Virus record (IMG/VR): IMGVR_UViG_3300007519_000018
Location: 1 to 64,000 of that record
Length of the DNA: 64,000 bases
Direction: 5' to 3' (one strand)
DNA from: a virus
The translations under genes and the position numbers were made by a program. Every line of letters starts with the position of its first letter. Position 1 is the first letter of the stretch. The notes below the pieces were generated by a model. It was not told where the DNA came from, ran no database searches, and saw only the letters and a program-made list of their open reading frames with translations. Shown piece after piece: positions 12,106 through 53,242 of this stretch.

Positions 12106-13773
12106 CTACAGGATTTTTTCTGATTTACCTTGCGGGGGATTTTGTTGGGCACTTTTCCAACGATTCCTTACATAGTTGGAACCGGTCGACCCAAAGAAGT
12201 CATCAAACGACTTGTCATCATTGATCTCAAAAGCACCATCTCGCGTACGCTTGGCAATGAGCGACGGTGGCTGAACACTATTGTTCCACAGGTAGAAGTC
12301 ATCAAACATATTGGACGTAATCTGACGTGGAACAATAGGCTGCAACTCTCCAGCAATTTGGCTACCGAACCACCCCGGGAGAACCGGACCACCAGAAGCC
12401 TTATTTATTGCATTGCGAGAAGCTAAGCGTCGATCGGCCTCAGCGCCCGGAATGTAGACAAAGTGCCCAACCGTCGCGTAACCGTTGTTTCTCGCCCACT
12501 TCAGGTGCTCTGTCCGCTTACCCGTTCCGGTAACGACCACGTCCGTGCCCGCCTCACGGGCAGCATCCATCGCCCTGTCCGTGACGGCCCTCGAAGCAGG
12601 GTGAACTGCCGCAGCGCCACGACCACCGTCCCACCCCTCAAGTTGAGTCTTGATCCAGTCCGGATCAATGAAGGCAGCTGCATTGGACGCTGGAACATCC
12701 AGAGTCCCATCCTCGACAAGAGTGGTTTTTCCTGAGCCGGTTGTTCCGCCAACAAAATGTAGCGTCCTAGCGCCGCCCGGCTTGTTTCTGTGCTCAGGGG
12801 CGACCCGATTGATGATTTTAGATGTCGCTTCTCGGCCACCAGAACCGACCCTGCCGGACCTCATGCCTGAACGGAGTTCTCTATACTTATCTACCGTGTC
12901 GCCACTCAACGCCTTTCGGACGCTAGGGGGAGCCTCTGAGTACCAGCCGGGATCACTGGCGATCAGTTTCTCCCAAGACGCCGCTGACGACTTCTTCGTC
13001 TTCGTTGCTTTCTTGACCGCTTTCCCAACTTTTCGTACCACTGCAGGTCGCTCGAAAGCTGTTGAGTCCTGAATCAGGCCGTCGTTGTCCCCATCGAGGG
13101 CCTTGGGGTCGTATGGCTGAGCGGAGCGGAGCGCCCTGCCGAGAGACTTGCCATACAACTCTTCGTTGAGAGAAACCTTGCGGCGCGGCTTTTTCTTACC
13201 GAGCCTGTCCTGCTCTTCTTCAAGGATTCGACGGGCCCTTTGACGTTCTAGCCGATCCCGGTATCTCCTGCCCAGCGCGGTCGATCCAGTGCGTCGAGCG
13301 TAATCGGTGATATTGCTACACGGTGTCCATACTGTATTTCCGCCGGTGGAGCGGCGACGAGCTACCCCGATGCAGCCCATTTGGCGAGCACGCCTGCGGG
13401 CGGAGTTTATGTCAGTGAAAACGTCCTCGTCTCCATCGAATGGAATGGAGGACGCAGCTTTGCCTCCAACTGCTCCTGAAACAAGGCCGCCGCCAGACAT
13501 TGTGTCGATTGCAATGACGCCACGCTCGCTGAGTTCTTCCCAGTTCTTTTTGTTCTTAGATTTCTTTTTGCGGCCCTTGCGTTCGCGAACGCTTTCGTAA
13601 TCACGCATTCTAGAAAGGACAGACTTTTTTTCCTGTTCGTTTTCGAGACGCTCGTACTCTTCGTGGGTTTTGCAAGCCATCCACGTTCCGTTTGGGTGTT
13701 GATGAGCACCAGCACAGCCGAGTTCTTTGGCTCGGCGCAGAGCCGCTGCCCTGTTTGCGGTGTCTCCGGACAT
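12106..13773 (-). CDS. modular head-operon protein with zeta-toxin-like kinase domain
   Basis: A 555-residue protein. Near the N-terminus are two copies of a cysteine module of the form GCxG...WxxC followed by Tyr-Arg (about residues 19-46 and 132-165). Residues about 205-240 read KSLGRALRSAQPYDPKALDG, then DGDNDGL and FERP, the shared calcium-loop-like module. GMRSGR follows. The C-terminal third is a P-loop kinase of the zeta-toxin type: GGTTGSGKTT (about 340-349), AAFIDPDWIK, VVTGTG, GHFVYIP and RLASRN. Zeta toxins phosphorylate UDP-N-acetylglucosamine or related sugars and block wall synthesis. No epsilon-type antitoxin is adjacent. I infer a packaged effector or a virion NTP-dependent factor; the substrate is unknown. 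Confidence 0.75.
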   Translation of the reverse strand: MSGDTANRAAALRRAKELGCAGAHQHPNGTWMACKTHEEYERLENEQEKKSVLSRMRDYESVRERKGRKKKSKNKKNWEELSERGVIAIDTMSGGGLVSGAVGGKAASSIPFDGDEDVFTDINSARRRARQMGCIGVARRRSTGGNTVWTPCSNITDYARRTGSTALGRRYRDRLERQRARRILEEEQDRLGKKKPRRKVSLNEELYGKSLGRALRSAQPYDPKALDGDNDGLIQDSTAFERPAVVRKVGKAVKKATKTKKSSAASWEKLIASDPGWYSEAPPSVRKALSGDTVDKYRELRSGMRSGRVGSGGREATSKIINRVAPEHRNKPGGARTLHFVGGTTGSGKTTLVEDGTLDVPASNAAAFIDPDWIKTQLEGWDGGRGAAAVHPASRAVTDRAMDAAREAGTDVVVTGTGKRTEHLKWARNNGYATVGHFVYIPGAEADRRLASRNAINKASGGPVLPGWFGSQIAGELQPIVPRQITSNMFDDFYLWNNSVQPPSLIAKRTRDGAFEINDDKSFDDFFGSTGSNYVRNRWKSAQQNPPQGKSEKIL

Positions 13774-13775
13774 GA

Positions 13776-14144
13776 TTAGGACTCGTTATAGTTGTAGTCC
13801 ATCGAAAGACGAGCTACTTTCGGGTCGCTGATCTTCAGTTTCTCAAGTTTCGCTGCAGCCTTTTGAGCCTCAAAGGTCTCGTAGCCGTATCGCTTCCGGT
13901 ACATCTCTGCTTCTTCAATTTGATCTTCGTAGTCTTCCCCAATGGCTGCGAACAAATCGTTATCTGGCGGATATGGCTTACCTGCCTCTCGTATTCGCAT
14001 GATGAACTTTTGACGCATTTCTTGGTCAATCGAAAAAGGCGGGTAGTCGATCGCGTGCGAGAAGCGTTTGTGGTAGTCACCGAACTTTTTGCGCTCCTCT
14101 ACCTCCTCGTCGGTCAGATCAAGATCGTAGGTATTTACTGTCAT
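13776..14144 (-). CDS. protein of unknown function in the giant-gene block
   Basis: A 122-residue charged, helical protein starting MTVNTYDLDLTDEEVEERKK, with YPPFSIDQEMRQKFI in the centre. AGAGG lies at ribosome-site distance. It is 2 bases from the upstream giant gene and 2 bases from the zeta-like gene. No family recognised. It may be a small partner or inhibitor of a neighbouring effector, but nothing in the sequence proves it. Confidence 0.6.
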   Translation of the reverse strand: MTVNTYDLDLTDEEVEERKKFGDYHKRFSHAIDYPPFSIDQEMRQKFIMRIREAGKPYPPDNDLFAAIGEDYEDQIEEAEMYRKRYGYETFEAQKAAAKLEKLKISDPKVARLSMDYNYNES

Positions 14145-14146
14145 GG

Positions 14147-17100
14147 TTATCCTCTGGCTGCTTTGATCATTACTCTTGCTTCGATACCATCTATCGGCTG
14201 AGAGATATCAAGTACTGCGACCGTTCCGCGGTTATGGACAAGCACAACTTCGCCGTGATCGACGTAGTCGTATCCTAACATAGGGGCATAATAGCCAGCG
14301 TCGTGGGCGGACAATGACTGCATGTACCCCAGCGCATCCCACATTGGTTCGCGACGAGGGTCGTCTGGTTTCAACTTTGAATACTGATCAATCCATTGGT
14401 CATAAATTCTGCCCATATCTGACTGCTCAAGAAGTCCGGCAACTCCAAGACGAGTTTCTGCTTCTTTCAGACGTTTTGTTATTGCCGCCGCAGCGTTTGC
14501 TGGATCCTCATTTTTGAGAACATCGGTACCCTGCTCAGAGATGAGCGATTCGACCTCTCTGGCCAACTTTTTGTGATCGTTCTGGATGTCATTGAGGTCT
14601 TTGCTGTCGATTCCGTTGCCGTCAGGATCAACGAATCCGACCATTCCCGTACCGTAAGCACCCCAGTGGCTACTCTTTTCTGAAGCCCAGTATTCTCCCA
14701 CGCCGTAAGCACGAGCACCCTGACCCGGGATGAAACGATCGTCGTCCTCCTTGTAGGAGTTGATGTAGCCGAGGGCCTTACTGTTCTCACGGCCGACGCC
14801 ACGGTGGATGGGCGTCCATCCAGCATCAATCAATGTTTCGAATTCGTTCTCCGATAGAAGCACCGGCTTACCGTTCATTTCCCCGTTCTCCCAAAGATTC
14901 AGGAGAAGATCGTCAAACGTTTCCTTGTCGATTTCGCCTTTGTCTCGCCCGATGATCCGAGTCTGAACAAAGGCGAGGAAGTCAATGAAATTGTCATCGA
15001 CCTTCGGTTTTCCGCCTGCGTCACGGGCAAGTGGAGTTTTCTGACGTCGATCCTCGAACAGTTTGCGAATACTCTTCTCGGTACGCTCTCCACGCAACTT
15101 GCGTCGCGCCCTGCGGAGCAATCGCGCGAGCTTACGACGCGCCTTTTCGGTGGCAGCAATGTCGGACTGGGTGGCGGTACGACCGAGCAGAGAGTTCCGA
15201 CGCATACGTCGGTTTTGGCGGCGCTGTTCGCGATCTGCATCGGGTTGCATGATGCGGTCGGCGAAGTCCCTCCGACGTTTGCCGGCCTTCTTCGCTGCCC
15301 TTTCGGAAATTGCACCCCCTACGGCGCTGGCACTTGATGAACGCTCATCGTTATAGAAGGTCGATTCCTGACCGAGGCCCACCGATGCCGCTGTTGGGAC
15401 GTCCTTGTTTTCTTTGCGAGCGTCCGTCATCACCCGCTTCTGCGTCGTGTCGTGGAGATGCTCCAGCATTGAGTAGTCGCCACGTAAGCGCATCTCGGCA
15501 AGAGTCTTGATGTCGTCTAGCTGCTTCCGCTTACTGGCGTAAACTTCGGGTGTGATTTCACCGTCTCCAAGACTTGAGTCAAGTGCTGACTGCAAAGTTT
15601 CCAGTAGGTCATTTTCCGGTACAATTTGACGCATCTCGTCTGGCGTCATGCCGACTGTATATAGGCCGTCATCGAGCATGTTTTGACGAGCCCCATCGAG
15701 CGGGCCGTTTTTCGTGAGGTCGTAGAACAAGGCACCTTCTCGCGCCCTTGCTGCATCACGGACAGATGCTTTCTGAGCATCATTCAAGTTGCCCCAAACC
15801 TGACCGTCTCTGTCGTTGACCTTGGTTATACCAGCGACGCCTCCGCGTTTCTTCCGTGAGCGCATGCCGCCACCAAGGCCGCGTGTTGCAGTGACGTCCA
15901 TTTGTGCTGCTTGGCGGTCGGCCCTATCAATTCCTCTGTCGGGGGAAAAGCGGGGGGCCGCTTGGCGTGCTGAACGCATTCCATTTCCGGAGGGATCCTT
16001 TGGGGGTATCGAGTCGACCTTGCCGACCTTGCCGACACCACGATCCTTTCCGTTCTTCTTTGCGTTTCGTTCAAGATCGACGATTGCATCGCTGCCCCAG
16101 ATCCGTCTGATCCAACGTTCGACATCGTGTTTTAAGGGCTTTCTGGGATTCCAATGCGTTCCCCGAAATAAAATACCTACTCCGATTTTTTCCTCGAACT
16201 TTGGGCTATTCGGTCCGGGCCACGTGCTGGTCACGTCGGTCCCCTGCTTCTTGGTCCAGTCGTACAGGCGGTCGGGAACAATAATTACCGACCCATTTCC
16301 GCCCGCATCGTGCAGAACAAAACCATTGGCCTCAAGCATTTTGAAGAAATTTTGGTCACCGGCCTCGATGCGTTTGTGTTGCGGACGTTTCGCCTCGCCG
16401 TTGAGGCCGAAGTAAAGTTCAACCGTCCGCTTGTTTGAGGTGTCGGTAATTTTGGGTAATTTTTCACTACTGACATTCGATGGATTGCCACTCGTTGGGT
16501 TCTTCGGGCTCTTCGGCGCCTTCGGCTTCTTCGGCCCCCTCCTTGATTGCAACCCGCTGATACTGCTAGAGCGACGCTCAGTCAGCGTGTCGAGAGTGTC
16601 ATTCAGTATCTGAGAAAGACTAGAACGATCCGAATTAGACATGCCATCCAAAGGCCCATCGAGTTCGAGTTGGCGCAGGGCTGCCCGGAGGCGCCCCATG
16701 AACTCTGCGTTCGAACCGTAAACACCCTTTCCATCGAGGACCGTAGCGGCTTCCACGACGGCACTACTAATTCCGTTATTCATTTGCGCGTAGCCACCAA
16801 AATTAACGTCGACGCCATCGAGTAGTTCCCGTACTTCTTTTCCGGTTGCGCGCTCCTTGGAAGGGCGCATGCCCTTCGATTTCCTTATCGATTCGAGACC
16901 AAGAGAGTCTTCGACACCACCACCGAATTCGTAGGTGTTGCCGCTGGGGGTTTCAACGAAAAGCGAATGGTGACCGCCACCGTAGTCGCCGCGGTTACCC
17001 CAACTTGCCTCTCGAAAATATTCGTATCTTGCACCTTTGAGAGGCCCCTTTGTGATGCGTCCACGAACGGTTTCGTCTTCTCCGGGTAGTTGTGCGTCCC

Positions 17101-19048
17101 AGCCGGTGCGGCGACGGGCTGGTGTGTAATTGTTTGCGTTCTGCAAAATTTCGCCGGGGAATTCGCCGTAGAACTCTCGCACGTTTTCGAGAACTTCGTC
17201 GAAAACCATTTCCGTTTCATCGGGGTCAAACCCGTCGCGCTCAGCCGTACGCCGCATGTAGTCGACGTTACGGTTGTGTGGGAAGATGTTGTCTGACTCA
17301 CGTTGCTGCGTTGACCGTCTTCCTCGTAGGTCGCGTTGGAGTGCTCGCTGGCGACGAAGTTCGTCGGCGACAACCATTCCGTCGCGATAGTCGCCATCAA
17401 AATTATTGTCAACCCACTTTTCCCACTTTTGTGGAAACCATTGGTTTTCTATTTCGGTGGACGGGTCGATGCCGAGTTCGTCTCTAAGTTCTGCGAGGCG
17501 TTCATCCGTGGCGCTAATGTACGCGTCCATCTCTTCGGGGGCTATGTCGTCAAGTGTGCGACGGCTACGAAGACCCGAGTACAGCTGGGCAATTTGGTCG
17601 TCGTCGAATCCAAGTTCGCGGAGACGCTCCTCGCGTCGATCCGCCATCCGCTTTATCCGTTCGGGGTCCTCAGGGATGATGTTGCCCTTAGAGTCTCGCT
17701 TGACTTGCCCGTCTGAGCGGGATAGGCGCTGTGAGCGCATACCGCCCGCCAGCAGCGGTTGCTCCCTGACCCACCGCTCCAACTCCGCGCCTGTCAGCAG
17801 CGGCCTATTTGGGTCCCTTGCCTCATCCGCTTCCATTTCCGCTAGCGATCGTCGAATTCCGGCGGCGGCGGCGGCGGCGAGCTTCTCGATCTCGTCGAAC
17901 GGGAGGTCACCGGGGAGGTTGTCCCCGTACTTCTCGGGGAGTCCGAGATTTGTCGGGTCGTCCCTGCGCCTCCGCGCCGTCTCCGCTCTCACCCCGGCGC
18001 CTCTGCGGGCCTCTTGTTCGGCTGTCAGACCGAGGCTGCCGATTTTACCATCATCCCGTTGGCGCCGTTCGGAGCGACGGCCCTGAATCGATGAGCCATC
18101 AATGCGGCGAACCAAACTCGACTGATCCCCAAGCAGCTCCCGCAAGCGGTTCTCGTCGAGGGCCGCGGCCGGATTCCCGGCACGACGCTCCTTTTCGATT
18201 TCCATTGAATCGCCGTCAACAAGGGCGGAGACCCGTCGAGCCATATTCTTTGGGACAGTGAACCGTGGGATGATTGGACGTTCCATTCCGGGCACGCCCT
18301 CAAATACGATCCCGTCACTGTCCCCATCGACCCGTCCGGTGATGTCAACGAAAGACATTCCTCGCGGTGCGGAACGAAGACCGCCTCCAACTTTTGGTCC
18401 AAGCGCTTTGACCTCTGGTTCGAATGGGCTCAGGCTGTATCCGCCGTGATTTAGGAGGGACTCAGATTTTGCTTTGAGTACTTCCTTGACTGTGCGGCGA
18501 AGAATCCCTGTTCCGTTCGCCATATTGGAAAGATCGCTACCTAGGTGCGGGTTATTGTCCCTCGACTTGAATCGCATTCCCTTGGTCTCGATTCCGAGAC
18601 CATCAACCCGAACCTTGGCCATAACCGACGAACGTGCGGTTTCGTTGAGCAGCGAGCGGACCTTGAATTCGACTGCGGTTTGGAAATGCTCGTCAGGGAA
18701 GAACGAGAGAGGGACGCCCGACATGTCGAGAATTTTGGTGTTCGCCCGAGTTTTAAATGAAGCCACGTGGACCATGTCATCTCGGTTTGGGAGCCTGACA
18801 TCGAGATTCCCATCGATCATTTCGGCAAGAAGAGGCTCTTCCGACGCCGACAAGCCTCGGAAGGCGCCGACTTCGATCCCGTATGGGAGTTCGTCTTCGA
18901 TGCTTTTTGTTTGGATGTCGTTATACGCTTCCGCCCATGCTTCGCCTTTCGCCGAAAGGCCATAACAGGTTTCAGCAACTTCATCTCGAACGACTAAGCC
19001 AAACAGCTTTCCCGAAATTTTGTCTTTTACGATTGCGTACTGTTTCAC
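14147..19048 (-). CDS. giant modular head-operon protein with ADP-ribosyltransferase-like C-terminus
   Basis: A 1633-residue protein starting with GTG in a GTGA overlap. An N-terminal globular part (about 1-210) is followed by KALGPKVGGGLRS and the shared calcium-loop-like element RVDGDSDGIVFEG plus ERP (about 235-255). A long Arg/Asp-rich, probably disordered region contains six G-[LM]-[RQ]-S boxes. Near the C-terminus (about 1405-1455) GWTPIHRGVGR, then FIPGQGARAYGVGEYWAS and WGAYGTGMVGF resemble phage ADP-ribosyltransferase domains (Arg, then the YG-G-Y-S strand). The conserved Glu was not confirmed. T4 packages an ADP-ribosyltransferase (Alt) in its head, which is the model for my inference that this is an injected effector. 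Exact activity and target are unknown. Confidence 0.6.
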   Translation of the reverse strand: MKQYAIVKDKISGKLFGLVVRDEVAETCYGLSAKGEAWAEAYNDIQTKSIEDELPYGIEVGAFRGLSASEEPLLAEMIDGNLDVRLPNRDDMVHVASFKTRANTKILDMSGVPLSFFPDEHFQTAVEFKVRSLLNETARSSVMAKVRVDGLGIETKGMRFKSRDNNPHLGSDLSNMANGTGILRRTVKEVLKAKSESLLNHGGYSLSPFEPEVKALGPKVGGGLRSAPRGMSFVDITGRVDGDSDGIVFEGVPGMERPIIPRFTVPKNMARRVSALVDGDSMEIEKERRAGNPAAALDENRLRELLGDQSSLVRRIDGSSIQGRRSERRQRDDGKIGSLGLTAEQEARRGAGVRAETARRRRDDPTNLGLPEKYGDNLPGDLPFDEIEKLAAAAAAGIRRSLAEMEADEARDPNRPLLTGAELERWVREQPLLAGGMRSQRLSRSDGQVKRDSKGNIIPEDPERIKRMADRREERLRELGFDDDQIAQLYSGLRSRRTLDDIAPEEMDAYISATDERLAELRDELGIDPSTEIENQWFPQKWEKWVDNNFDGDYRDGMVVADELRRQRALQRDLRGRRSTQQRESDNIFPHNRNVDYMRRTAERDGFDPDETEMVFDEVLENVREFYGEFPGEILQNANNYTPARRRTGWDAQLPGEDETVRGRITKGPLKGARYEYFREASWGNRGDYGGGHHSLFVETPSGNTYEFGGGVEDSLGLESIRKSKGMRPSKERATGKEVRELLDGVDVNFGGYAQMNNGISSAVVEAATVLDGKGVYGSNAEFMGRLRAALRQLELDGPLDGMSNSDRSSLSQILNDTLDTLTERRSSSISGLQSRRGPKKPKAPKSPKNPTSGNPSNVSSEKLPKITDTSNKRTVELYFGLNGEAKRPQHKRIEAGDQNFFKMLEANGFVLHDAGGNGSVIIVPDRLYDWTKKQGTDVTSTWPGPNSPKFEEKIGVGILFRGTHWNPRKPLKHDVERWIRRIWGSDAIVDLERNAKKNGKDRGVGKVGKVDSIPPKDPSGNGMRSARQAAPRFSPDRGIDRADRQAAQMDVTATRGLGGGMRSRKKRGGVAGITKVNDRDGQVWGNLNDAQKASVRDAARAREGALFYDLTKNGPLDGARQNMLDDGLYTVGMTPDEMRQIVPENDLLETLQSALDSSLGDGEITPEVYASKRKQLDDIKTLAEMRLRGDYSMLEHLHDTTQKRVMTDARKENKDVPTAASVGLGQESTFYNDERSSSASAVGGAISERAAKKAGKRRRDFADRIMQPDADREQRRQNRRMRRNSLLGRTATQSDIAATEKARRKLARLLRRARRKLRGERTEKSIRKLFEDRRQKTPLARDAGGKPKVDDNFIDFLAFVQTRIIGRDKGEIDKETFDDLLLNLWENGEMNGKPVLLSENEFETLIDAGWTPIHRGVGRENSKALGYINSYKEDDDRFIPGQGARAYGVGEYWASEKSSHWGAYGTGMVGFVDPDGNGIDSKDLNDIQNDHKKLAREVESLISEQGTDVLKNEDPANAAAAITKRLKEAETRLGVAGLLEQSDMGRIYDQWIDQYSKLKPDDPRREPMWDALGYMQSLSAHDAGYYAPMLGYDYVDHGEVVLVHNRGTVAVLDISQPIDGIEARVMIKAARG

Positions 19049-21650: not shown

Positions 21651-21667
21651 GATACCTACAGTTTAGT

Positions 21668-22069: not shown

Positions 22070-22076
22070 AAAATCC

Positions 22077-27500: not shown

Positions 27501-29614
27501 CCGGATGGAGTTACGGGCGAGTTGATATCCGACTTCCCATTCATCCACTCGATTTGCTGATCAATCAGATCACTGTCGATGACGCCCATTTTCTGAAGAG
27601 CACGAAGTTCGGTCATGCCCTCCATGAGCATGACTGCAAGGGTGATCCCTGATTCTTGTCTGAGCGGGCCCTCTCCGTTTTCTCCCCAGAATTCCTTGAC
27701 TTTGTCTTGGTAGTATTTACCGGACAGGATGTGAAGCATGCTTCCTTCGAAGGCATGGATGCCGACGGGAGGAAAACCCTCCGGCAGGTATTCCGCTGGA
27801 AGGAGACCCTGTATGACGCTGTTCAATGCCTCCCCCCACTGCTCGTTACTCCACTGATCAGGTGGATCCGTCAAAGCCACCACCCCATTTTTACCCACCG
27901 CATAGGTGACACCACGATTGTTCCAATCGTCAATGACCAGTTTCTGAACAGCGGCGTACTGCTGCAGATGGCCCATTTCGTGGTAACCAATATGTCGCGC
28001 CTGCGCTTGGAGCGATCCATGCCGCGCGGCAGAAAGGTCAGACGCGTACCTGTCCTTCCAACGCTCTAGATCGATCTCGCCCTGAAAGAATTCTTGAAGC
28101 GCCTGCCATTGCTGACCCTCGCTGCCGGTTCCATCCGTTGAGACGATCCTGATCTTTCCGTCGTCCAGATAGAAGGCTCCATCATCATCGATCATTGGTC
28201 GCAGAACTTGGACGAGCGGGTTGACCTCCATGGTCATGCCGAAACCAGTAGTGTTTTGGTAACTAATTGGAGAGAGTTCCGCTTCGGTCAACCAGTAATT
28301 TTCGAGATTCCCATTTTCGCGACCGGCATCGTATGGCCTGAAAGTTATTTTTTTGAGGAGGCGCACTGATTCAGGGTCGTCATGGAACTCGTGGAGGATG
28401 GACTCAAGAGTCCCTCTGAGTACATCGTGATGTCGATCAACGAGGATCTCCACCATCTTTGCCGCGTCCGCTGGGTCAACTGACGGATCAACGTAGTCGA
28501 GGTAATCCTGACGAAGCCTCGCATCCAGATTCTGGAGATTCTCCAAAAGAGTTTTGTTCGGGTCGTAGACGGAATCTCCAAAAATGCCGGAGAACAAGCC
28601 TTCGAATTCGACATCCCACATGCCGTTGTTCCTCAGACCCAAAATGGTGTCCCACAAGTCTGCGTTTAGGTCGGTATCACCAGTTGCAGACACCATCTTT
28701 CGCAACGTGTCCAGCGCTGCATCTTTTTCCGCAAGCCGTTGATCGAAAACGCTTTTTGGGGCAAGCATCTGCGAGGCCGCTTCCATTGCGCGCCTGTTGG
28801 AAGCAAAACGCGGATCATCCGCATCAGCTTCCAGCATCTCCATGTACCGCCCCATCGCTACATGGTTGTTGAACCAACTACCTACACGACCAAGCCGTCG
28901 GATGGCGGATACTGGGGCCACGAAACAGTTGGTCCCGAACTCGTCCGTGAACTGGTTTGCTGCCGGAGTTCCGGGAGGACAACGGAATTTTCCTAGTTCG
29001 TCGACGATGACACCAATTGCTCTCGCTGAGCGGGAACCGAGACTGCCGCCGGGGACAACTGAGCCGATGCTCCTACCGAGAGCTTTCGTTTCCACTCCGT
29101 CAGGAAGAGACTTGACGTTTACCGTTCGCTTCGAATCTTCGATCCTTGCGCCAGTTCTTGGGTCCGCTTCGTATTCGTTGACAATAATTTTCGGCGTCTT
29201 TTTTTTGAAGGCAAGCGCCTCCATCATCCCCAATCGCCGCTCGTCTGGTCGAAGTTCCTTGGGGGGAGAAACCCACCCGAAGTTTGGTTCATCGCCCTTG
29301 CGGAGCATATCCTTTGCGGTCACATGCAATTTTAGAACATCGCCGGGTTGACGCGTCTTGTTCGGCGCAAACCTTACTTCTGGTATGGTCTCCTTGACAC
29401 CGGAACCGGCGGTCCTCTTCTGGGACTCCTTGTCGTTCCCGCCGACGGCGTCGCCGATGAGCGCTTTGACGGACCACTCTGCATCAATCTCTGATCTGGT
29501 GCTGGAGATTGCAGCGTGAATACGGAACTGTTGGCCTAGCCACTCGTAATCACGACGGTGGGTGCCTAAAACTCGTTCCGAATGTATATATCTGGTGGCT
29601 CGGGTTAGGGCCAT
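24572..29614 (-). CDS. 1680-residue modular head-operon protein with HExGH metalloprotease-like domain
   Basis: The longest protein in the window. After a unique N-terminal part comes KALGRSIGSVVPGG, then the cysteine element KFRCPPGTPAANQF...NCFV (about 205-235), also seen in the 652-residue protein. A large globular part follows with YHEMGHLQQYAAVQ (HExGH near 543-548) and a later GMTELRALQKMG. A Pro-rich linker near 720-760 separates it from a disordered region with GLRSKRSRG. Toward the C-terminus, IVLRPEVSMRSAYALGD and METAIAGGFDIADIERIDVP resemble the conserved core of actinobacterial DUF3626-type proteins, from memory. Zn-peptidase plus a second possible catalytic domain would make it a multi-effector. 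The virion location is inferred from its place between protease and capsid genes. Confidence 0.55.
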   Translation of the reverse strand: MALTRATRYIHSERVLGTHRRDYEWLGQQFRIHAAISSTRSEIDAEWSVKALIGDAVGGNDKESQKRTAGSGVKETIPEVRFAPNKTRQPGDVLKLHVTAKDMLRKGDEPNFGWVSPPKELRPDERRLGMMEALAFKKKTPKIIVNEYEADPRTGARIEDSKRTVNVKSLPDGVETKALGRSIGSVVPGGSLGSRSARAIGVIVDELGKFRCPPGTPAANQFTDEFGTNCFVAPVSAIRRLGRVGSWFNNHVAMGRYMEMLEADADDPRFASNRRAMEAASQMLAPKSVFDQRLAEKDAALDTLRKMVSATGDTDLNADLWDTILGLRNNGMWDVEFEGLFSGIFGDSVYDPNKTLLENLQNLDARLRQDYLDYVDPSVDPADAAKMVEILVDRHHDVLRGTLESILHEFHDDPESVRLLKKITFRPYDAGRENGNLENYWLTEAELSPISYQNTTGFGMTMEVNPLVQVLRPMIDDDGAFYLDDGKIRIVSTDGTGSEGQQWQALQEFFQGEIDLERWKDRYASDLSAARHGSLQAQARHIGYHEMGHLQQYAAVQKLVIDDWNNRGVTYAVGKNGVVALTDPPDQWSNEQWGEALNSVIQGLLPAEYLPEGFPPVGIHAFEGSMLHILSGKYYQDKVKEFWGENGEGPLRQESGITLAVMLMEGMTELRALQKMGVIDSDLIDQQIEWMNGKSDINSPVTPSGPPKWSPAPPGNTPPPTPPNIPATNPPNSPPGSPVPDDTELSIIPSEITWMVDKETGEILSTQGPWDLMERYFIARHGGRPDDKRGGNQEIPRKSIARTWGWPDVPYSQLGADGLDGRFKVLQTDADQLLERIDAGEQLDDDDTARLWMASKGMAQIADENARRRNASDKIRQERSSKFERNDSGKIFRKSKKPYKKNAGDDDEIYDDDRYRQAMIQTEQSIPGRYPDAPKSWTEDPAGHGSEQSMEAMRSMNNVEQAAMTKDLKERNKSYVHGGTDLEDAVKRAAEVRGQEVDNTGPHPSPSKEIAETILPVLDAMERNPVSETVEGYVIFDDGDDLIPIDTYIEAEDGRSFQLLLDGLRSKRSRGFVELQVVSSREESNIDYANSGNRTKIVVPKGSRGMWRENEDGENSKLTLPPGSFDVVEDVDGVQTMIPSRQESSSDFAGRLLGDMSEWGNPGSVAEMRERSDLERVLRGRQVEQPRHVRSHFSQDSAVRTKMIKRRNDMDRGFADNSIEPFNPDFSARDQTLDRSTATSMILTADRLADGDLSDNLRTADGREFSMTPETRDFIERSGSDAVTKKVAEAAEQWHEGVDRRVRSRVSSDELNDLLETGSPTRADRSMMMAEFERNNGWPTGAPPDSRPLIGHATHAVHDNIVDDLLERSGRGGFPALRRSGFFDHSGDSPHGPLSPYGESDIVLRPEVSMRSAYALGDILRDPAAMTRLNDTDPRRYASQLAVSRRGEGDTALRMGNLLHAGLTGDFRGVQMRDMPPEVEQNGMMTRLPRSFGSADIPMETAIAGGFDIADIERIDVPIDSLGWKRLELRRGDIDFQASGTAQNLKRAGWSDAEIDFLLESLSNGRLPNIKSANLLRQHRAANADRIRFDRAGVNVRYTNADGIDLFSRRDLTSSTDSGARIGRVRNVEEALLVRLDDEVSARQATLRPIVQQGMRNMRGSKSLDSHSPVYEAALREVGE

Positions 29615-29637
29615 TGGGACCCACTCTTTCCCGGCGC

Positions 29638-30990
29638 TCAGGCGAGACCGTCGACGTCGCCGTCCTCGTTGGTTAGCATTTCGAACTCCGCAATCGACTG
29701 CATGAACGCGGCATCAACGTCCGAAAGGACATCTGCCTTCTTTGAGGCCGACCAGTTGGCGGGAAGCATGTCTTCCTTGCCCATTTCACGAGCGCGCTTC
29801 ATGATGTGCTTCTTCGCCGTCTCCTTGTCGGCTGCGCGACCGTGGGCCATGATGGCGTTACGGAGATCGTCGACGTTGGAGATAGGGAACGAACCGTCAG
29901 ACATGGCGAGGCCCTCTTTGGCCATCTCCTCACGCTGTTCCTCGTTGAAGGCGCGCTTGAGGGCGATCTCTGCGGCTTCCGCCTCGATTTCTTCTGCCTC
30001 GTCCGGCTCGTAAGCGTCGTATCCAAGAACCTCGCCGTCGAGGGCGACGAACACGTCGTACGACTTTCCGTCAATTCCATCAATCTCGACTGCGTAGCAG
30101 TCAAAACCTTCGAAGGTGTCTGGTTCGACCGCCATCACTGAACCATCGAGCCCGTCGAGGCTTTTCACTGCGATATCGCATGCCTCGGTGAAGCCGATAA
30201 GTTCCGTTTCCTCGTACAAAGACTTCTGCTCGAAAACTGAATCGTCGAGGCGATGGAAGGCGAGAACTTCGCCCGTAGTTCCTTCCATGTAGACCTCGAT
30301 CGCTCGCCCATCCTTGACTTGAAGATCGACGATGTAGACGTCGCTGCTCTGGGCGTAGCCGGAATCAATAACCGTTCCGTCGAACTCGGCCTCCGCTTTG
30401 CCTTCAATCTCGATGAGACCCGGCATCCCCTTCTCCGACATGCACCCGCCCGGGCAGTCGTCGCACATGCCGCTGCTTCCGGAGTAAACCTTGCGATCGA
30501 TTGCGCAAAGGAATCCGGATTTACCGACGTTTGCTGTTTTCTTGCCCATCGTATTCAGGCGACGCTTGCGGGCATCACCCATCCAGCGCTTGGCGACGGG
30601 GGCGTCCTCTTCGTCTTCGTCGTCTTCGTCGTCTTCGTCGTCTACGGCGGTGTCGTCGTCGGTCTCGGGATCTGACTCGACGTCGGTGGCGTCTTCCTCG
30701 TCGGCCTCGGGATCAACGTCGGGGGCGTCCTCGTCTTCCTCTTCTTCGTCGTCAATTTCAGAGCCAACGGCGGCGAGTGCCTTTTCCACCAACTCGTCCT
30801 CGTCGTCGATTTCTTCCATTTCCTCATCGGAAACTGGAACCATCTTCATGGAAACGGGTATTGCTCCGCACTTTCCACAGACTTTCGCGCCCGCCGTGTA
30901 TCCGCACTCATCTCCACTGAGACCTTTTGCGCACTTAAGAACACCACCGTCAGCGTCAATCTTGACAACTGCTTTCTCGTCGTAACTCAT
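29638..30990 (-). CDS. acidic head-associated protein with zinc ribbon and PepSY-like repeats
   Basis: A 450-residue protein starting at ATG 30990 with AAGGAG upstream. An N-terminal four-Cys ribbon (CAKG..ECGY...CGKCG) is followed by an extremely acidic stretch (about residues 65-150, runs such as DDEDDEDDEDEED). Then come a Cys-rich CDDCPGGC motif and two PepSY-like halves (IEVYMEGTTGEVLAFHR; YDVFVALDGEVLGYD). The C-terminus SDGSFPISNVDDLRNAI, then AKKHIMKRAREMG and LPANW, matches the small domain called DUF6582 as I remember it from phage head proteins. It sits directly after the prohead protease, where scaffold or protease regulators lie. The acidic region may act as scaffold. Confidence 0.65.
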   Translation of the reverse strand: MSYDEKAVVKIDADGGVLKCAKGLSGDECGYTAGAKVCGKCGAIPVSMKMVPVSDEEMEEIDDEDELVEKALAAVGSEIDDEEEEDEDAPDVDPEADEEDATDVESDPETDDDTAVDDEDDEDDEDEEDAPVAKRWMGDARKRRLNTMGKKTANVGKSGFLCAIDRKVYSGSSGMCDDCPGGCMSEKGMPGLIEIEGKAEAEFDGTVIDSGYAQSSDVYIVDLQVKDGRAIEVYMEGTTGEVLAFHRLDDSVFEQKSLYEETELIGFTEACDIAVKSLDGLDGSVMAVEPDTFEGFDCYAVEIDGIDGKSYDVFVALDGEVLGYDAYEPDEAEEIEAEAAEIALKRAFNEEQREEMAKEGLAMSDGSFPISNVDDLRNAIMAHGRAADKETAKKHIMKRAREMGKEDMLPANWSASKKADVLSDVDAAFMQSIAEFEMLTNEDGDVDGLA

Positions 30991-31174
30991 CGTTGCTGGC
31001 TCCTTACAGTGCATGTTCTTGAGTAGACAATCATTTTGAAAATACTACACCTTCACATGGCATCATAGCCTTAAGGCGTGGAGACCACGCAGAAGTATTT
31101 GGGGTAATTTTCACTAAGACCGTTTGTCAAATTGTACCCTAGATTGGTGTTGGTTGAGGGGAAAGCCCAAATAA
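30991..31174 (-). promoter_or_regulatory. 184-base gap with inverted repeat and candidate promoter
   Basis: The gap between protease and the acidic head gene holds GCGTGG-AGA-CCACGC at 31076-31090 and, on the minus strand, TACAAT directly followed by TTGACA (31136-31125). TTGACA could be a -35, but its -10 at the right distance is poor; TACAAT could be a -10 of its own. The hairpin has only a weak T run. It may allow separate expression of the acidic protein. Confidence 0.35.
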
Positions 31175-34100
31175 TCAATTGTTCGGGATGCTGACAGTCC
31201 TTCCTTGAGAGTTTGTCCTCTCCTGTGTCCGGCTAGTTATTTCTTCAGTTGTCCCCGTTATGAATGTTCCCATCGCTGCTTCAGCAAAAATATCAAGGAG
31301 CCTCGTGAAAATGTCTACCCTTGATCCGCCTGTTTCCATTTGTCGATCGACCACGACCATGAGGGCGTCCATTATCTGGTCTACCTCGTCTTGGGTGACC
31401 GTAACTGTTCCGACGTTCGTCCTGCGGTCACCAAGTTTTCCGGAGTCTTGACGGCCCATAATGCCCTGCAAGAGTCTAAGCGCGTCAGATGTTTGTCTGT
31501 CGCTGCTTGAGCGTGCTTCTCTAATTTCCTTGTCGAGAGAATCTTCAATCTTTTTGAAGAATGTTGCCTCTTCAATAATCTGGGTGCGACCCTTTTTCTC
31601 GGAGCGAAGGCCGCCAACGCTTCTCGAATTCGCATATTCCTGAACAGATTCACTTGGCTTATAGTTGCGCATTGAGCGCATGCCAGCCTCTGAAAGGAAA
31701 CGCGCAGCCCCCGTTCCGGTATTAGGGATATCGTCTTCATCAATCCCGCCGACCCGGAGGGCAGCGGCCGAGTCGCCCTGCTCGATGGCGCCATTACGTT
31801 GGTAGCCGTCGACCATCTCGCCAATAACCGTATTCAACGATCGTGCCGCTTGCATACTCGCAGACTCTTTTGCTGTGAGTTCCCTGCCTTGGAACTGCTC
31901 CATGTATTCATCGAGCGTGGCTTGCATTGATTCGAGCATCGTCATCGTGACCTCGTCGCCCTCGTTGGTAAGATCAGAAAGAGCATCCCAAACCTCTTGA
32001 TGATCCTCTGATGCATCACCGTCAGCAACGGCGTCGGCGAGACGTGTTTGGTTCCCTGAGACACGTTTGTCAACTTTAGATAGATCCCGTTTGCGTTGTT
32101 CCGTCCATTGGGCCGGGGAGATTTCTGGCGACTGTTCCTCTGGAACTGCGTCTCCAGTGGGCTGTTCGGGTGGAGCGGATGGACTTGGTGCTGGCGGAGT
32201 ATTGGCCAATTCCTGAGTGATTTGACGTCGCCGAGACTGGCGTTCTTCCCTGCGCTCCTGCTCCTCTATCTTCTTGCCTATTTCTGTGGAAAGGCGCCGG
32301 AAATCGACTTCCTTCATGCCGCTCTTCTTGGGAGAATAAAAAGCATAGAGTTCGTCAAACTGCTGATCTGGGGGTAGTTCATCCCATCCTTCGGGTTTGA
32401 TTTCTTCCCACTTTTTGCCCACATTTTGGCTGTTTGCAATTCTGGTACCCATTGGGCGCCCGGGCCGGTTGGCTGTTTCTGCTACAGCCGACGAACGCTC
32501 CTCCGGGCCGGGTCGCTTACTGGAACGGAGACCGCTTCCGCGCGCCGACTGCGCTCCGTCAAGAATTGACCACCCCTTGGGGGAGATGTCGTCAACTTCT
32601 AGACCAGCAAACCGATCCCTGATGGGCGGCTCGGATTCAGACTGGCCCCATTCCAGAAGGCTGGACATGTTGCGCTTTGTCATGCCGGGAGGTGTTGGTC
32701 TTTTACCAGCAAAACCACCGCCCTTCTTGAGATTGGGTGATTCGTATGTCCCATTTGGCGACAGGGCGGCAAAGTCGATTATGTCTTTTGCCGCACGCAT
32801 GGGGGCTGGGACTTCGCTGGACTCGTTCCGCTTTGCGTACTCGTTGAACCCTGACTGAATTCTTTGAGCCAAATCTTGAGGCATCTTTTCAGAGTTGCCT
32901 TGGAGCCATTTGTCGAGTTCGGAAAACGCTGTAATTCCCTGAGCATTTTTCTGCTCCCGTTCCAATGAGCGACGAATGTCGCCGCGCTCATCAGCGTTGA
33001 GTTTCAGGGAGACGCCGTTTTCTGGAATCCGAGAGTTGCTCCGGGGTCCCATGGAGTTCATTTTCTGACGGTCCGGGTCGAGATTGCCGTCAACCCATTT
33101 TCCGTTCCTTGCTCCACCCTTCATCCGTGAAAGAAAGTCCGACAGTTCAAGGATGGAACCCGAATCATCGTCGCCAATGCGAGAGTTCAGGGTGTCGATA
33201 GCAATCTGCAAATTTGAACGATCAATTATCGACGGTCCTGTTTTGGGGTCGATCTGAGATGCGAGCGATCGCAGCGTATCTGCTACCGGTCGGTCAAGTG
33301 ATGCGTTGTCGACAAAATCCTGAAGCGTCTCAGCGTAGGAGATACGATCACGTGCAGGCGCCGCCAATTCGATCTGATCGCTGTTCTTCCGCGACCTCAT
33401 TCCACGTCCACGATTTTTCCGAGTAAACCACTCTGCCGCCTCGTTCACTCCGTCGCGAAGTTTTTTGCTTTTATCTCTAGTGCTGTAAGGGCTATTGTTT
33501 GCGGCGCCGGTCAAGGTTGGTTGTTGGACGAATTCTCTCGCCTCGTCAGCCGACGGGATTCTTTCATTGATCCAACTGATGTCCTCTTCAAGAATGGACC
33601 GCTCGACTCGATTGTCATCAAGATCGTTGATCGCCTCAAGCGTCTGATCCATGTAGTAGGCGTAGTCGCCCTCTTCGATCACGTCGGCGTCGAAGTTGTC
33701 TTTTAGCCACTTTTCTGCCGCCGCCTCCGGATTACTTGAGTTGCGGATCTCATCAAGTTCATATTTGTTCATTGACAGAGAGCGAGTAGCGGAACGCAGT
33801 TGATCGCGCATATCGCTTTCGTCTTTATTCAGATCACTGAGTTTCTCCTCGACCTGCTCTGCGTAATCAGCCAAGTCGTCAACGTGATTGCTGATTGAAG
33901 AAATTCGATCTTCGGATTCCCCAAGTTCGGACAAGTCGTCTAGGAACCATGATTCGTAATTATCTGAAAGGCGTTGAGCGTCTTCTGGGGTGAACTTGTC
34001 TGCTCCACCCAATCGATTTGCCAATATGGCTGTCGCCAGTTCCGTATTGGAACGACCTTGTTCTGTTTCAAGAATAGACATTGCCCATAAGTCGTCGTAC

Positions 34101-36106
34101 GACTTTCCGGCACGCTTCTTCATGGCTTCGACTTGTGAAGAAACGATCTCTTTAGCTTCGTCAAGCTCGTCCTTGATTTCGGCGAAATCCATTTTTTCAA
34201 GACGATTCTTATATGTGTTTTTACGCATAGACCGAAGACCTTCATCTCCGGTTCCAGTGTTTGCGGATGGCGCCTGCGGAAGGTTCGGTAACTTTGGTGT
34301 TGACGGCGTGGCTGGGCGCTCAAAGGGCGAGCCCTCCTGAACCAAGCCATCGTTGTCGCCGTCTATTGCGTTTGGATCGAACCGTTGCGTTACGGCCCGC
34401 AGGGACCTAAGTGCTTTTTTTGAACCACCCCCAAAGATGTTCTTGCTGGCATTATAGATTGCCTGCATGAACTCTTCGGTTGTCCCTGAGAGCACTTTGA
34501 TTCCGTGCTCGGTCACCTCGACTTCGGTTTTGTGATACTCGAAGATTGGATCGAGGGCTTCTTTGACCCTGAAAACCTGCGAGGGGTCGCACTCAATGAT
34601 GACGTTTTGCTGTTCCTCATTGAAACCCGACATTTCTGACATGTATTCGAGTGACTTCTCGTCGTCGTCGTGATGCTTCTCTCGCTGACGGAAAATGTCG
34701 GCCATCGTCGGCTCGGGCGTTTCCTGAGCGTAAGCCCTACTCGTGGAATGATTCGGCTTTGTCCGCATAGAGATCGCTGGCATCCGGGGAGGGACAACGG
34801 CACTCATGGGCTGGAAGGTCATCTGAGGAACGACCCTTTCCGGCTTTCCGAACATGTACTGCTGCGTTTCCCGGTCCCAATGATACGGAAGGCGGTAGTA
34901 CTTCTTCATTCCTTCTTTCATCTTCGCAAAGACGACGAGGTTCCCGGTTGCGGTCATCAATTGGATTGGAGCCTGAACCCGTGAAGCGATCTCTATTTCA
35001 AGAGAATTTCGCTTTTCTGGGCTAAGAGGCTGAGCCGCTCCGTCGGAGAAGATGTCACGATTCGGTTCCGGCTTCCTTGCCGAAATCATCTGCATCATCA
35101 TGTGATTCTTCTCGGAGACATCCGTGATCTCGTCATCAAAATCGATTTCGTCGCCCCAGACGCTCTTCACTTGCTCAAGTACGTGATCGAGAGCAATTTC
35201 CTCAAACTCTTCCTCGAAAAATGATTCGTAATCAGAGAAATCGAACTCTTGTTTCCATTCAGCATCTTTTTTCTTTGAGCTTTCGTAGCGCTCAAGGAGT
35301 CGGCGACCCTTTGCGGCAAGTTTTGCGGCATCGCTACGGTCCTGAGGGGATGGTTCTCCCCATGCTGCAGCAGAAAGCGCTAGTCGGGTCGGCTTGCCGT
35401 CCGGTTTCTTCATTGGGCCCGAAGGATTCGTGAAGAATCGCGTCAAGAAAGAGCCCTTCCTGCACATCTTCTGCGGCGTGTTTGCGGCTCCGCGAACTCC
35501 CGGCTTCAGGTTTGCGCCATCCGTCTGAGCGAAGTGACTGCGCCCCTCGGCGGTCAGACCACCCTCAGGGTCTTTGAGTTTGGCTTGCTTGATTGAGATC
35601 GTTCCAGTCAACTGGTTCGCTCCGTGGAGAACCGGGCTGACCTCGTAAAGTTCGACTTCCTTTAGGACGTTCGCCTGCTTTGAAGGGTCGAAAACTGCGT
35701 CGAGCGTTTTGTATCCAATTGACCATTCCTGCTCAAGGCCGAAGAATTGGACATTGGAAAACGCCTCGCGACCTTTTTCTGAGTTCAGGTTGAACTGAAC
35801 CTTCGCGTACAGTCCGCCAATTCCTGCCCTTTTCATCTTTTCTGGGAGACGAGGGTCGGAGGCTGGAACCTCATAAATCTCAAGGATTTTCCCGATTGGG
35901 TCGTTCCAGTTGTGTCCCCATACGACGCGCGGCTTCCTGCGCTTCAGGCTTCCGTCGAACACTCCGGGTGCGCAAATATCACCGACGGAGTCCTTGTTGC
36001 CGATTCCGGCGACGAAACACTCCACGATGCCCTTGGCATCATTTACGGAAACTTGACCGGCGGGTGCCGCTTTGAACTCGATATCATCGAATTGTGAATC
36101 AGGCAT
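31175..36106 (-). CDS. prohead protease (HK97 S78-like) with giant modular C-terminal extension
   Basis: A 1643-residue protein, started at ATG 36106 with AAAGGGAGAG at proper distance. Residues 1-175 are a herpesvirus/HK97-type serine protease: VVWGHNWNDPIG with His65, EWSIGYKT with Ser129, and ELYEVSPVLHGAN. Typical prohead proteases have 200-250 residues, so about 1,450 are extra. These include LNPNAIDGDNDG-type module FDPNAIDGDNDGLVQEG plus FERP (about 575-600) and five G-[LM]-R-S boxes (GLRSMRK, GMRSRKN, GLRSSKR, GMRSMRN, GLRSEKK). The protease cleaves capsid and scaffold proteins inside the prohead. The extension could be an internal scaffold or cargo released by self-cleavage. This is inference. 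Confidence 0.85.
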   Translation of the reverse strand: MPDSQFDDIEFKAAPAGQVSVNDAKGIVECFVAGIGNKDSVGDICAPGVFDGSLKRRKPRVVWGHNWNDPIGKILEIYEVPASDPRLPEKMKRAGIGGLYAKVQFNLNSEKGREAFSNVQFFGLEQEWSIGYKTLDAVFDPSKQANVLKEVELYEVSPVLHGANQLTGTISIKQAKLKDPEGGLTAEGRSHFAQTDGANLKPGVRGAANTPQKMCRKGSFLTRFFTNPSGPMKKPDGKPTRLALSAAAWGEPSPQDRSDAAKLAAKGRRLLERYESSKKKDAEWKQEFDFSDYESFFEEEFEEIALDHVLEQVKSVWGDEIDFDDEITDVSEKNHMMMQMISARKPEPNRDIFSDGAAQPLSPEKRNSLEIEIASRVQAPIQLMTATGNLVVFAKMKEGMKKYYRLPYHWDRETQQYMFGKPERVVPQMTFQPMSAVVPPRMPAISMRTKPNHSTSRAYAQETPEPTMADIFRQREKHHDDDEKSLEYMSEMSGFNEEQQNVIIECDPSQVFRVKEALDPIFEYHKTEVEVTEHGIKVLSGTTEEFMQAIYNASKNIFGGGSKKALRSLRAVTQRFDPNAIDGDNDGLVQEGSPFERPATPSTPKLPNLPQAPSANTGTGDEGLRSMRKNTYKNRLEKMDFAEIKDELDEAKEIVSSQVEAMKKRAGKSYDDLWAMSILETEQGRSNTELATAILANRLGGADKFTPEDAQRLSDNYESWFLDDLSELGESEDRISSISNHVDDLADYAEQVEEKLSDLNKDESDMRDQLRSATRSLSMNKYELDEIRNSSNPEAAAEKWLKDNFDADVIEEGDYAYYMDQTLEAINDLDDNRVERSILEEDISWINERIPSADEAREFVQQPTLTGAANNSPYSTRDKSKKLRDGVNEAAEWFTRKNRGRGMRSRKNSDQIELAAPARDRISYAETLQDFVDNASLDRPVADTLRSLASQIDPKTGPSIIDRSNLQIAIDTLNSRIGDDDSGSILELSDFLSRMKGGARNGKWVDGNLDPDRQKMNSMGPRSNSRIPENGVSLKLNADERGDIRRSLEREQKNAQGITAFSELDKWLQGNSEKMPQDLAQRIQSGFNEYAKRNESSEVPAPMRAAKDIIDFAALSPNGTYESPNLKKGGGFAGKRPTPPGMTKRNMSSLLEWGQSESEPPIRDRFAGLEVDDISPKGWSILDGAQSARGSGLRSSKRPGPEERSSAVAETANRPGRPMGTRIANSQNVGKKWEEIKPEGWDELPPDQQFDELYAFYSPKKSGMKEVDFRRLSTEIGKKIEEQERREERQSRRRQITQELANTPPAPSPSAPPEQPTGDAVPEEQSPEISPAQWTEQRKRDLSKVDKRVSGNQTRLADAVADGDASEDHQEVWDALSDLTNEGDEVTMTMLESMQATLDEYMEQFQGRELTAKESASMQAARSLNTVIGEMVDGYQRNGAIEQGDSAAALRVGGIDEDDIPNTGTGAARFLSEAGMRSMRNYKPSESVQEYANSRSVGGLRSEKKGRTQIIEEATFFKKIEDSLDKEIREARSSSDRQTSDALRLLQGIMGRQDSGKLGDRRTNVGTVTVTQDEVDQIMDALMVVVDRQMETGGSRVDIFTRLLDIFAEAAMGTFITGTTEEITSRTQERTNSQGRTVSIPNN

Positions 36107-45231: not shown

Positions 45232-45241
45232 ATACTTAGCC

Positions 45242-46027: not shown

Positions 46028-46028
46028 T

Positions 46029-53225: not shown

Positions 53226-53242
53226 CCTGAGGGTTGAGACCT

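Follow-up and report, generated by a model that had tools for sequence, protein, structure and literature searches.

Giant modular proteins encoded between the portal and capsid genes of an uncultured phage clade carry, in most of its phages, a phage-specific spacer at their cassette borders

Introduction

The stretch of DNA analysed here, called the window, comprises the first 64,000 nucleotides of the IMG/VR virus record IMGVR_UViG_3300007519_000018 (70.8 kilobases, kb, in full) and shows ten minus-strand genes, six large and four small, in the 24.2 kb between its portal and major capsid genes. The locus raises the question of what such giant proteins, encoded among head genes, do for the phage. 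A first-pass annotation, made from the letters of the DNA, took the six large genes for an effector system of a non-MuF kind, built on head-protein tags, loaded into the capsid and possibly injected with the DNA. Comparison with relatives shows that unrelated giants of one phage share a short spacer, which is tied to the borders of their exchangeable parts, here called cassettes; this phage-specific spacer is real and widespread in an uncultured phage clade, and is the new, testable part of the present analysis. The giants are probably effector polyproteins of the polyvalent type, loaded into the capsid and cut at the spacer by the S78 protease fused to the first of them.

Results

Relatives were collected by a capsid search of virus contigs (426 relatives, 80 kept) and by a portal search of 50 records picked by capsid or portal matches, 36 of which matched. 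The gap between portal and capsid genes ranges from 14.0 to 48.3 kb, with a median of 25.0 kb, in 36 records (34 records plus the window and G002, near-copies counted; relatives are denoted by G numbers). This interval was analysed in 32 regions: the window, 23 relatives and eight further relatives, G038 and G052 being cut short and a few others truncated at an end. The usual order is portal, protease fusion, acidic protein, 1680-like, 832-like, 133, 216, 654, 1633-like, 122, 555-like and capsid, the numbers giving the length of the window protein in amino acids (aa). This order is held in most regions, and the more divergent phages show missing, split or fused genes. Each region devotes 4,890-15,327 residues to proteins of at least 400 aa (24 regions; constant partners and cut regions counted), and across relatives the ends of the giants are conserved and their middles are not.

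An open count of four-letter words per phage reveals a short spacer that recurs in unrelated giants of one phage and differs between phages. The GxRS spacer of the window also occurs in nine further regions, including two that are copies of others. Other words are STRS (35 copies) in G020, GMAS in G012, GLSSG in G045, FSSG in G046, SGRM in G043, GFAS, GLAS or GFGS in G034, G026, G036 and G024, GFSS with GLSS in G042, and GMSS with GMRS in G049. Over 24 regions, G[LM]RS occurs in 123 copies, compared with 8.6 by chance. The window has 12 copies in the 7,935 residues of the gap (five in the protease fusion, five in the 1633-aa protein and one in each of the 1680-aa and 555-aa proteins) and one copy in the 12,493 residues outside it. 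Among 29 distinct phages, 19 show at least seven copies of one spacer class, and three (G023, G038 and G050) show five; this set omits G030, G047 and G007, which are copies of G029, G046 and G008, and still includes the near relatives G016/G029, G042/G050 and G026/G034/G036. Internal ATG starts in GMRS were rejected as the origin of the word, since GLRS makes up half of the window copies and the words of other phages include STRS, GFAS and GLSS. The literature searched, judged mostly from titles and the opening of abstracts and with most subscription papers outside the coverage, yielded no recognised account of a spacer of this kind.

The sole GLRS outside the window's gap belongs to a 1374-aa gene (53234-57358), which shows neither a PHROGs match nor a Pfam match above the cut-off and is perhaps, from its position, the tape measure gene.

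An orthologous site lies shortly before the end of the protease fusion, or of the next gene where the fusion is split; here 12 of 13 aligned rows show the phage's own word, which is GLRS, GMRS, GFRS, GFAS, GFSS or STRS depending on the phage; the G012 row has no residues in the part shown. When the spacer classes are placed on a 27-row tree of S78 plus 654-like sequences, 13 changes are required, with a minimum of 10 and a shuffled mean of 17.7; the word thus tracks kinship yet has switched, for instance between the sister phages G020 and G049.

Spacers lie outside recognised domains and in hydrophilic stretches. In seven proteins, only one of 87 spacers is inside a domain, compared with 8.3 expected, a count that includes a few domain matches under the Pfam cut-off, and no spacer falls within 41 mapped domains. 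The latter are 41 of the 49 in-gap matches, the eight in G028, G035 and G037 being omitted as these phages show no spacer class; matches outside the gap (one of zeta in G043, two of KTSC in G042 and one in G028) and three KTSC matches under the cut-off were also left out of the mapping. Of the 17 zeta-bearing phages, 14 have a spacer, whatever its word, 27-87 residues ahead of the zeta domain. In G034, G036 and G049 the ArdC-N domain begins 16-19 residues past a spacer, within a cassette of 325-363 residues, and in the other five mapped ArdC-N phages the nearest preceding spacer is 58 to 1,688 residues away. Hydrophobic residues make up a share of 0.18-0.21 in blocks spanning positions -8 to +15 relative to spacers, compared with 0.27 overall, while other G..S words show a dip (0.225) over the word itself only.

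Some cassettes have been gained or lost at spacers. In close pairs of phages, seven of 30 insertions or deletions (indels) have both ends at spacers, whereas 200 decoy draws from hydrophilic stretches averaged 0.87 and never exceeded 4; before merging, nine of 40 were spacer-bounded, compared with 0.33 expected under random placement. Indels with a flank identity under 0.3 were dropped, as were, in the set of 30, spacer-less proteins and repeat events in the same protein; some events in this set still overlap. The relative G003 contains an additional cassette of 135 residues at the spacer site of residue 1508 of the protease fusion. Across 21 regions, near relatives counted, the spacers mark off 291 internal segments.

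The content of the cassettes was scanned with Pfam in 100 pieces from 14 relatives. Their giants contain ArdC-N with MPTase-PolyVal, zeta toxin, pentapeptide repeats, KTSC and NUDIX, and also RNase_T (exonuclease), Sigma70 region 4, DnaJ, UvrD, a DRAT match (2e-5) and several helix-turn-helix families; one protein of 2,281 aa shows zeta, pentapeptide, ArdC-N and MPTase-PolyVal together. ArdC-N, zeta and KTSC were searched in 29 records (with G013 and G007, and without G008, G030, G047 and G052). ArdC-N is present in nine of these, every match lying between portal and capsid in one of three different genes: the protease fusion (G026, G028, G034, G036 and G046), the next gene (G045) or the last giant before the capsid (G016, G029 and G049). 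Zeta is present in 17, with 17 of its 18 matches inside the gap, and KTSC in 10; all KTSC matches of G042 and one of those of G028 lie outside the gap. The zeta profile is broad, since it matched all 14 control genomes, 13 of them above the cut-off; ArdC-N matched two of the 14 and KTSC one. Cassettes are also duplicated within and between giants of one phage. Comparison of relatives shows domains exchanged while backbones stay and, in many phages, a second shared element stays with them.

This second element is a DxDxDG...EG module, presumably akin to a calcium-binding loop, whose pattern matches 54 times across 32 regions, 11 of which show no match, compared with a shuffled mean of 0.0; both short modules therefore bear out, beyond chance, the sharing noticed earlier between the window genes. 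In the window the pattern is found in the protease, 832-aa and 1633-aa proteins, plus one doubtful match, and four proteins have the module close to where their N-terminal backbone ends. Its copies are often near identical within one phage and differ between phages (giants of G029, G042, G012 and G049), and it may evolve in concert, its copies being homogenised.

All six large genes of the first-pass annotation are present in the window, with products of 1652, 1680, 832, 654 (given earlier as 652), 1633 and 555 aa, and the series contains four more, of 458, 133, 216 and 122 aa (Table 1). The first giant starts at a TTG; an alternative ATG nine codons later places its end at 36106, as annotated before. 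Its S78 protease assignment is upheld by a profile score of 42.9 bits (curated cut-off 21). The S78 domain is N-terminal in the first giant in 24 of 24 regions, in a gene of 460-4,736 aa (1,002-4,736 aa in 17 regions and 460-868 aa in seven).

The kinase-like fold proposed for the 654-aa protein was found again by structure. Its C-terminal half is, in the predicted structure, an atypical kinase fold of the CotH/CtkA/HipA type: the model matches CotH with a Z score of 14.0 (229 aligned residues, 3.5 Å), CtkA with 13.5 and HipA with 12.5, over 212-229 residues. The mean predicted local distance difference test (pLDDT) score is 67.7 overall and mostly 70-90 in the kinase part, and residues D512, D516 and R520 are invariant. 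The first 200 residues are mostly of low model confidence despite conserved stretches. The sequence profile gave a best value of 0.19 to solved structures, the fold being identified by the structure search instead. A relative with 43% identity is encoded at L172 (7151-9124), on a 12-kb contig in a Phycisphaerae metagenome-assembled genome. Phycisphaerae are not claimed as host: the single scan made of cellular genomes returned only this relative, on a contig that is possibly a stray phage contig.

In the 1633-aa protein, the C-terminal domain earlier described as ADP-ribosyltransferase (ART)-like gives a well-folded model (pLDDT 88) with no Foldseek match below 1e-3; PARP matches are weak, at Z about 4 among unrelated rows (PARP3 Z 4.3, 115 residues, 4.7 Å, beneath an unrelated row with Z 5.0), and a profile search gave no clear ART assignment either, so that this domain is kept as a candidate only. 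The zeta-type kinase of the 555-aa protein agrees with the earlier assignment (37.3 bits, cut-off 22.3; P-loop GGTTGSGKTT) and is the only conflict-related Pfam domain above the cut-off in the window series. The two HExxH motifs previously read as peptidases are present in the 1680-aa and 832-aa proteins, neither of which shows a Pfam peptidase match; the best match of the 1680-aa HExxH part to solved structures by sequence profile has an E value of 0.05 and is to an unrelated M protein. The best match of the 1680-aa protein in relatives ranges from 520 to 3,372 aa. A search of 50,697 phage records gave no match to the 1680-aa protein at 1e-3, to the 654-aa protein at 1e-2 or to the 555-aa protein at 1e-3.

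Table 1. Features of the portal-capsid interval of the window; residue numbers refer to the protein named
Feature	Position	Strand	Remark
Portal protein gene, upstream border	36205..38202	-	Phage_portal 3.9e-49; homologues in 36/50 related records searched
Prohead protease with cargo part of ~1.4 thousand residues	31175..36133	-	1652 aa from TTG; S78 and DUF6321 above cut-off
Peptidase_S78 domain, residues 36-179	35597..36028	-	Pfam PF04586 7.4e-11
DUF6321 domain, residues 187-258	35360..35575	-	Pfam PF19846 4.1e-26
DxDxDG...QEG..FERP module, residues 585-610	34304..34381	-	Pattern; between backbone and cassettes
Spacer GLRS, residue 632, protease fusion	34229..34240	-	
Spacer GMRS, residue 911, protease fusion	33392..33403	-	
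Spacer GLRS, residue 1201, protease fusion	32522..32533	-	
Spacer GMRS, residue 1484, protease fusion	31673..31684	-	
Spacer GLRS, residue 1508, protease fusion	31601..31612	-	Other phages' own spacers at same site
Acidic 458-aa protein	29638..31014	-	Very acidic; 421-709 aa in 22 relatives
1680-aa giant	24572..29614	-	N-terminal ~700 residues conserved, middle variable, C-terminal part conserved
RCPPGTPAANQFTDEFGTNC module, 1680-aa protein	28922..28981	-	Core invariant in 10/10 aligned sequences; related module in 654-aa protein
HExxH, residues 545-549, 1680-aa protein	27968..27982	-	H, E, H invariant in 10/10 aligned sequences, window counted
Spacer GLRS, residue 1063, 1680-aa protein	26417..26428	-	
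832-aa protein	22077..24575	-	First ~90 residues most widely conserved, remainder variable
DxDxDG module, 832-aa protein	24039..24104	-	Pattern
HExxH, residues 433-437, 832-aa protein	23265..23279	-	Motif
133-aa small gene	21668..22069	-	BLAST homologues in 4 regions
216-aa gene	21000..21650	-	Stand-alone (198-222 aa) in 18/23 matched regions, within larger protein in 5
654-aa protein	19045..21009	-	Near-constant size, 651-688 aa in 17/21 matched regions
RCPEGYQYGGRFTD..STCG module, 654-aa protein	20569..20628	-	Mostly invariant across 26 aligned sequences
Predicted atypical kinase fold, residues 406-648, 654-aa protein	19066..19794	-	Foldseek best 8.0e-5
1633-aa giant	14147..19048	-	N-terminal 1-330 conserved, middle variable, C-terminal domain conserved
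Spacer GLRS, residue 223, 1633-aa protein	18371..18382	-	
DxDxDG module, 1633-aa protein	18272..18346	-	Pattern
Spacer GMRS, residue 436, 1633-aa protein	17732..17743	-	
Spacer GLRS, residue 492, 1633-aa protein	17564..17575	-	
Spacer GMRS, residue 1023, 1633-aa protein	15971..15982	-	
Spacer GMRS, residue 1061, 1633-aa protein	15857..15868	-	
C-terminal domain, residues 1311-1633, 1633-aa protein	14150..15118	-	Conserved RG, G.GEY, NR; ART-like candidate
122-aa small gene	13776..14144	-	BLAST homologues in 7 regions
555-aa protein: DUF3721, DxDxDG module, zeta-type kinase	12106..13773	-	Pfam; module by eye
DUF3721 stretch, residues 6-37	13663..13758	-	Pfam PF12518 1.8e-12, two stretches
DxDxDG module, residues 221-245, 555-aa protein	13039..13113	-	By eye
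Spacer GMRS, residue 303, 555-aa protein	12856..12867	-	28 residues ahead of zeta domain
Zeta-type kinase domain, residues 331-455	12409..12783	-	PF06414 2.5e-9; 1.6e-11 in second search
HK97-type major capsid protein, downstream border	10669..11994	-	Phage_capsid 2.5e-45

The capsid, portal, 1680-aa and 555-aa proteins are 100% identical in a record of 155.9 kb, and a tail-sheath gene in the window suggests that the phage is a myovirus. In the terminase large-subunit gene (38484-40916), LAGLIDADG/homing-endonuclease matches lie between the N- and C-terminal parts, as in an intein. The window also contains a small staphylococcal-nuclease homologue (SNase 2.2e-10) on the same strand after the capsid gene (10039-10401), a B12-dependent ribonucleotide reductase gene (7897-9822), and a cluster of 2-oxoglutarate-Fe(II) oxygenase, ParB-like and phosphoadenosine phosphosulfate reductase-like genes (44611-47293), which might serve DNA modification.

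Discussion

The arrangement suggests a mechanism in several steps. The conserved N-terminal backbone of each giant probably directs it into the prohead. Behind the backbone follows a variable string of cassettes, typically of 100-300 residues each, with hydrophilic spacers between them; in relatives these cassettes contain domains of antirestriction, kinase, nuclease, helicase, transcription-factor-like and other types. For the spacer, private to the phage lineage (GxRS in the window phage), the likeliest role is that of a site recognised and cut by the S78 protease of the same phage. After assembly this protease would release the effectors singly from the strings, and they would be packaged alongside the DNA and reach the host together with it. 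A protease site would be the simplest account of the word, since one short word is needed across all the substrates of a phage and may change along with the protease. ArdC, zeta and similar domains have early or host-directed roles, and since such domains are encoded here in a head operon, we infer delivery by the virion. Capsid loading, cleavage at the spacers, injection and what the effectors act on are likewise what we infer; presence in the virion and injection rest on gene position, on the fusion with a prohead protease and on precedents. In a more far-reaching form of this reading, these phages would possess a counterpart, in bacterial viruses, of viral polyproteins: several giants per phage would be loaded as effector strings and cut within the capsid by the fused head protease at the private word, and lineages would switch this word throughout their cassettes, so that word and protease co-evolve and a foreign cassette is useful only once it carries the resident word. 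We regard this as quite possible and somewhat short of probable.

Several observations weigh against cutting at the spacer or against its generality. Spacer patterns were hand-set per genome after the word counts, and no enriched spacer was found in seven of the 29 distinct phages (G028, G033, G035, G037, G040, G041 and G048). One of these, G028 (L135, L136), contains a protease fusion of 3,987 aa with five KTSC matches and no spacer; its word may be too degenerate for the counts used. Among zeta-bearing phages, G038 shows no spacer in the zeta gene and G035 and G037 show no spacer class. As to the indels, 23 of 30 lack spacers at both ends, and with the cleanest flanks (identity at least 0.8) four of eight are spacer-bounded and the other four are not. 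Recognised Pfam domains are few in the window's own giants; in profile searches ArdC-N is absent from the window's record and KTSC from its giants. The capsid contains the spacer-like EGLREA at residue 88, and at the N-terminal junction of the capsid protein, which the protease would be expected to cut as well, the resident spacer finds its best match over the whole capsid in only four of 15 phages (the window, G002, G003 and G045), so that a spacer at this junction was rejected as proof of cutting. Finally, the tested genes of the three nearest cultured phages (GMA6, DalanDe and Cantare, compared below) show no repeated spacer, no four-letter word exceeding five copies, and these phages were therefore rejected as a model.

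The chief rival explanation is that the spacer remains uncut, as a flexible linker or as a tag docking to scaffold, capsid or DNA, the giants staying whole as beads on a string. The hydrophilic surroundings of the spacers, outside domains, fit this, as does the seldom matching capsid junction, and the N4 virion RNA polymerase is, according to the available part of one survey, packaged unprocessed despite a peptidase domain (PMC5512222). However, a plain linker needs no phage-specific sequence, shared by unrelated proteins and switching between lineages; the protease is fused to its supposed substrate; and chains left uncut, with as many as 4,736 residues, would need to thread through the tail. 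We regard this explanation as unlikely, yet as one to be taken seriously. The head-protein tags of the first-pass annotation fare accordingly: the shared short modules are real, and the spacer looks more like a protease site than like a tag.

Two further explanations assign the spacer or the giants other roles. If the spacer were a DNA-level repeat for recombination of cassettes, homogenised by gene conversion and of no function in the protein, the gain, loss and duplication of some cassettes at spacers and the near identity of the DxDxDG module within a genome would be expected. Codon sharing among spacer copies is indeed raised in G029 and G045 (ratios 1.79 and 1.62), and in 15 of 17 genomes, these two included, the copies share codons slightly above expectation, which suggests some copying of DNA and is a further point against the main reading. 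The 15 genomes other than G029 and G045, however, show ratios near background (0.92-1.30), and the spacer copies are for the most part written in different DNA words (11 of 12 distinct in the window, 30 of 33 in G020, although 26 of 50 in G029); such a repeat is very improbable as the whole explanation. The giants could also be core or scaffold proteins setting the size of the head and later lost or broken down, the inserted domains mattering little, as their position between portal and capsid, the protease fusion, the acidic partner and the small or constant-size neighbour genes would allow. Against this, giant size varies severalfold among relatives, and ArdC, zeta, UvrD, NUDIX, exonuclease and pentapeptide domains, present in the giants, are to our knowledge not parts of any scaffold; we consider this role improbable. 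If instead the giants are effector polyproteins cut at the spacer, the private word would let phages of the clade be cut on paper into their effectors, giving many bounded candidate anti-defence or host-takeover proteins for testing, and would open to experiment the question of how a protease changes specificity jointly with dozens of its sites.

Comparison with known systems

By capsid, the nearest cultured phages are Gordonia phages GMA6 (49% identity) and DalanDe (49%) and Brevibacterium phage Cantare (58% over 77% of the capsid), which are nearest by protease too. As in the window, each has large genes and encodes an HExxH protein. In all three these precede the protease gene, and in GMA6 and Cantare they occupy the portal-capsid interval, the portal of DalanDe being outside the stretch compared. 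GMA6 has an annotated ART, and in DalanDe S78 is inside a protein of 1,633 aa. The three differ from the window in that the protease gene adjoins the capsid gene.

MuF polymorphic toxins of temperate phages are phage proteins with exchangeable effector parts. Unlike them, the window's domains are in tandem strings, and no MuF match was found in the ten proteins from the portal to the 122-aa gene (Pfam up to E 1, PHROGs up to 0.1) or in the 555-aa protein (Pfam up to E 1, PHROGs up to 0.001). The modular, non-MuF nature and the swapping of domains thus stand from the first-pass proposal; a system without kin does not, since the domain set is that of polyvalent proteins.

Processing by a prohead protease has counterparts in gp21 of T4 and gp175 of phiKZ. 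In SPN3US the head protease gp245 cuts several head and ejection proteins at the short motif AXE, and 13 of 14 cuts remove N-terminal propeptides, in eight proteins, long propeptides being cut repeatedly (PMC10052503, in the part available). The likeness would lie in one head protease, several packaged substrates and a short motif; the available text on SPN3US describes neither a string of effector cassettes nor switching of the motif, unlike the situation here.

The closest likeness in domain content is to the polyvalent proteins (Iyer et al. 2017, PMC5512222). As described in the accessible part of that survey, these are giant, multi-domain proteins, of which up to 35% are encoded by phages, mostly phages of the portal-terminase kind, and are likely packaged; they contain ArdC-N, MPTase, zeta-type kinase and ART domains, and are likened to polyproteins whose parts are thought to be released by embedded peptidases. 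The relatives studied here similarly combine several conflict-related domains in one polypeptide encoded beside portal, terminase and head genes. The signature domains ArdC-N and MPTase-PolyVal occur in cassettes of some of these relatives and not in the window. The assemblin-like peptidase is always C-terminal in the surveyed proteins, as far as the same part of the survey goes, whereas S78 is N-terminal in all 24 regions compared here. Compared with the polyvalent proteins so described, the present phages have several giants arranged in series in the portal-capsid interval, built on conserved backbones and, in most of the phages, marked by a phage-specific spacer at the borders of their cassettes.

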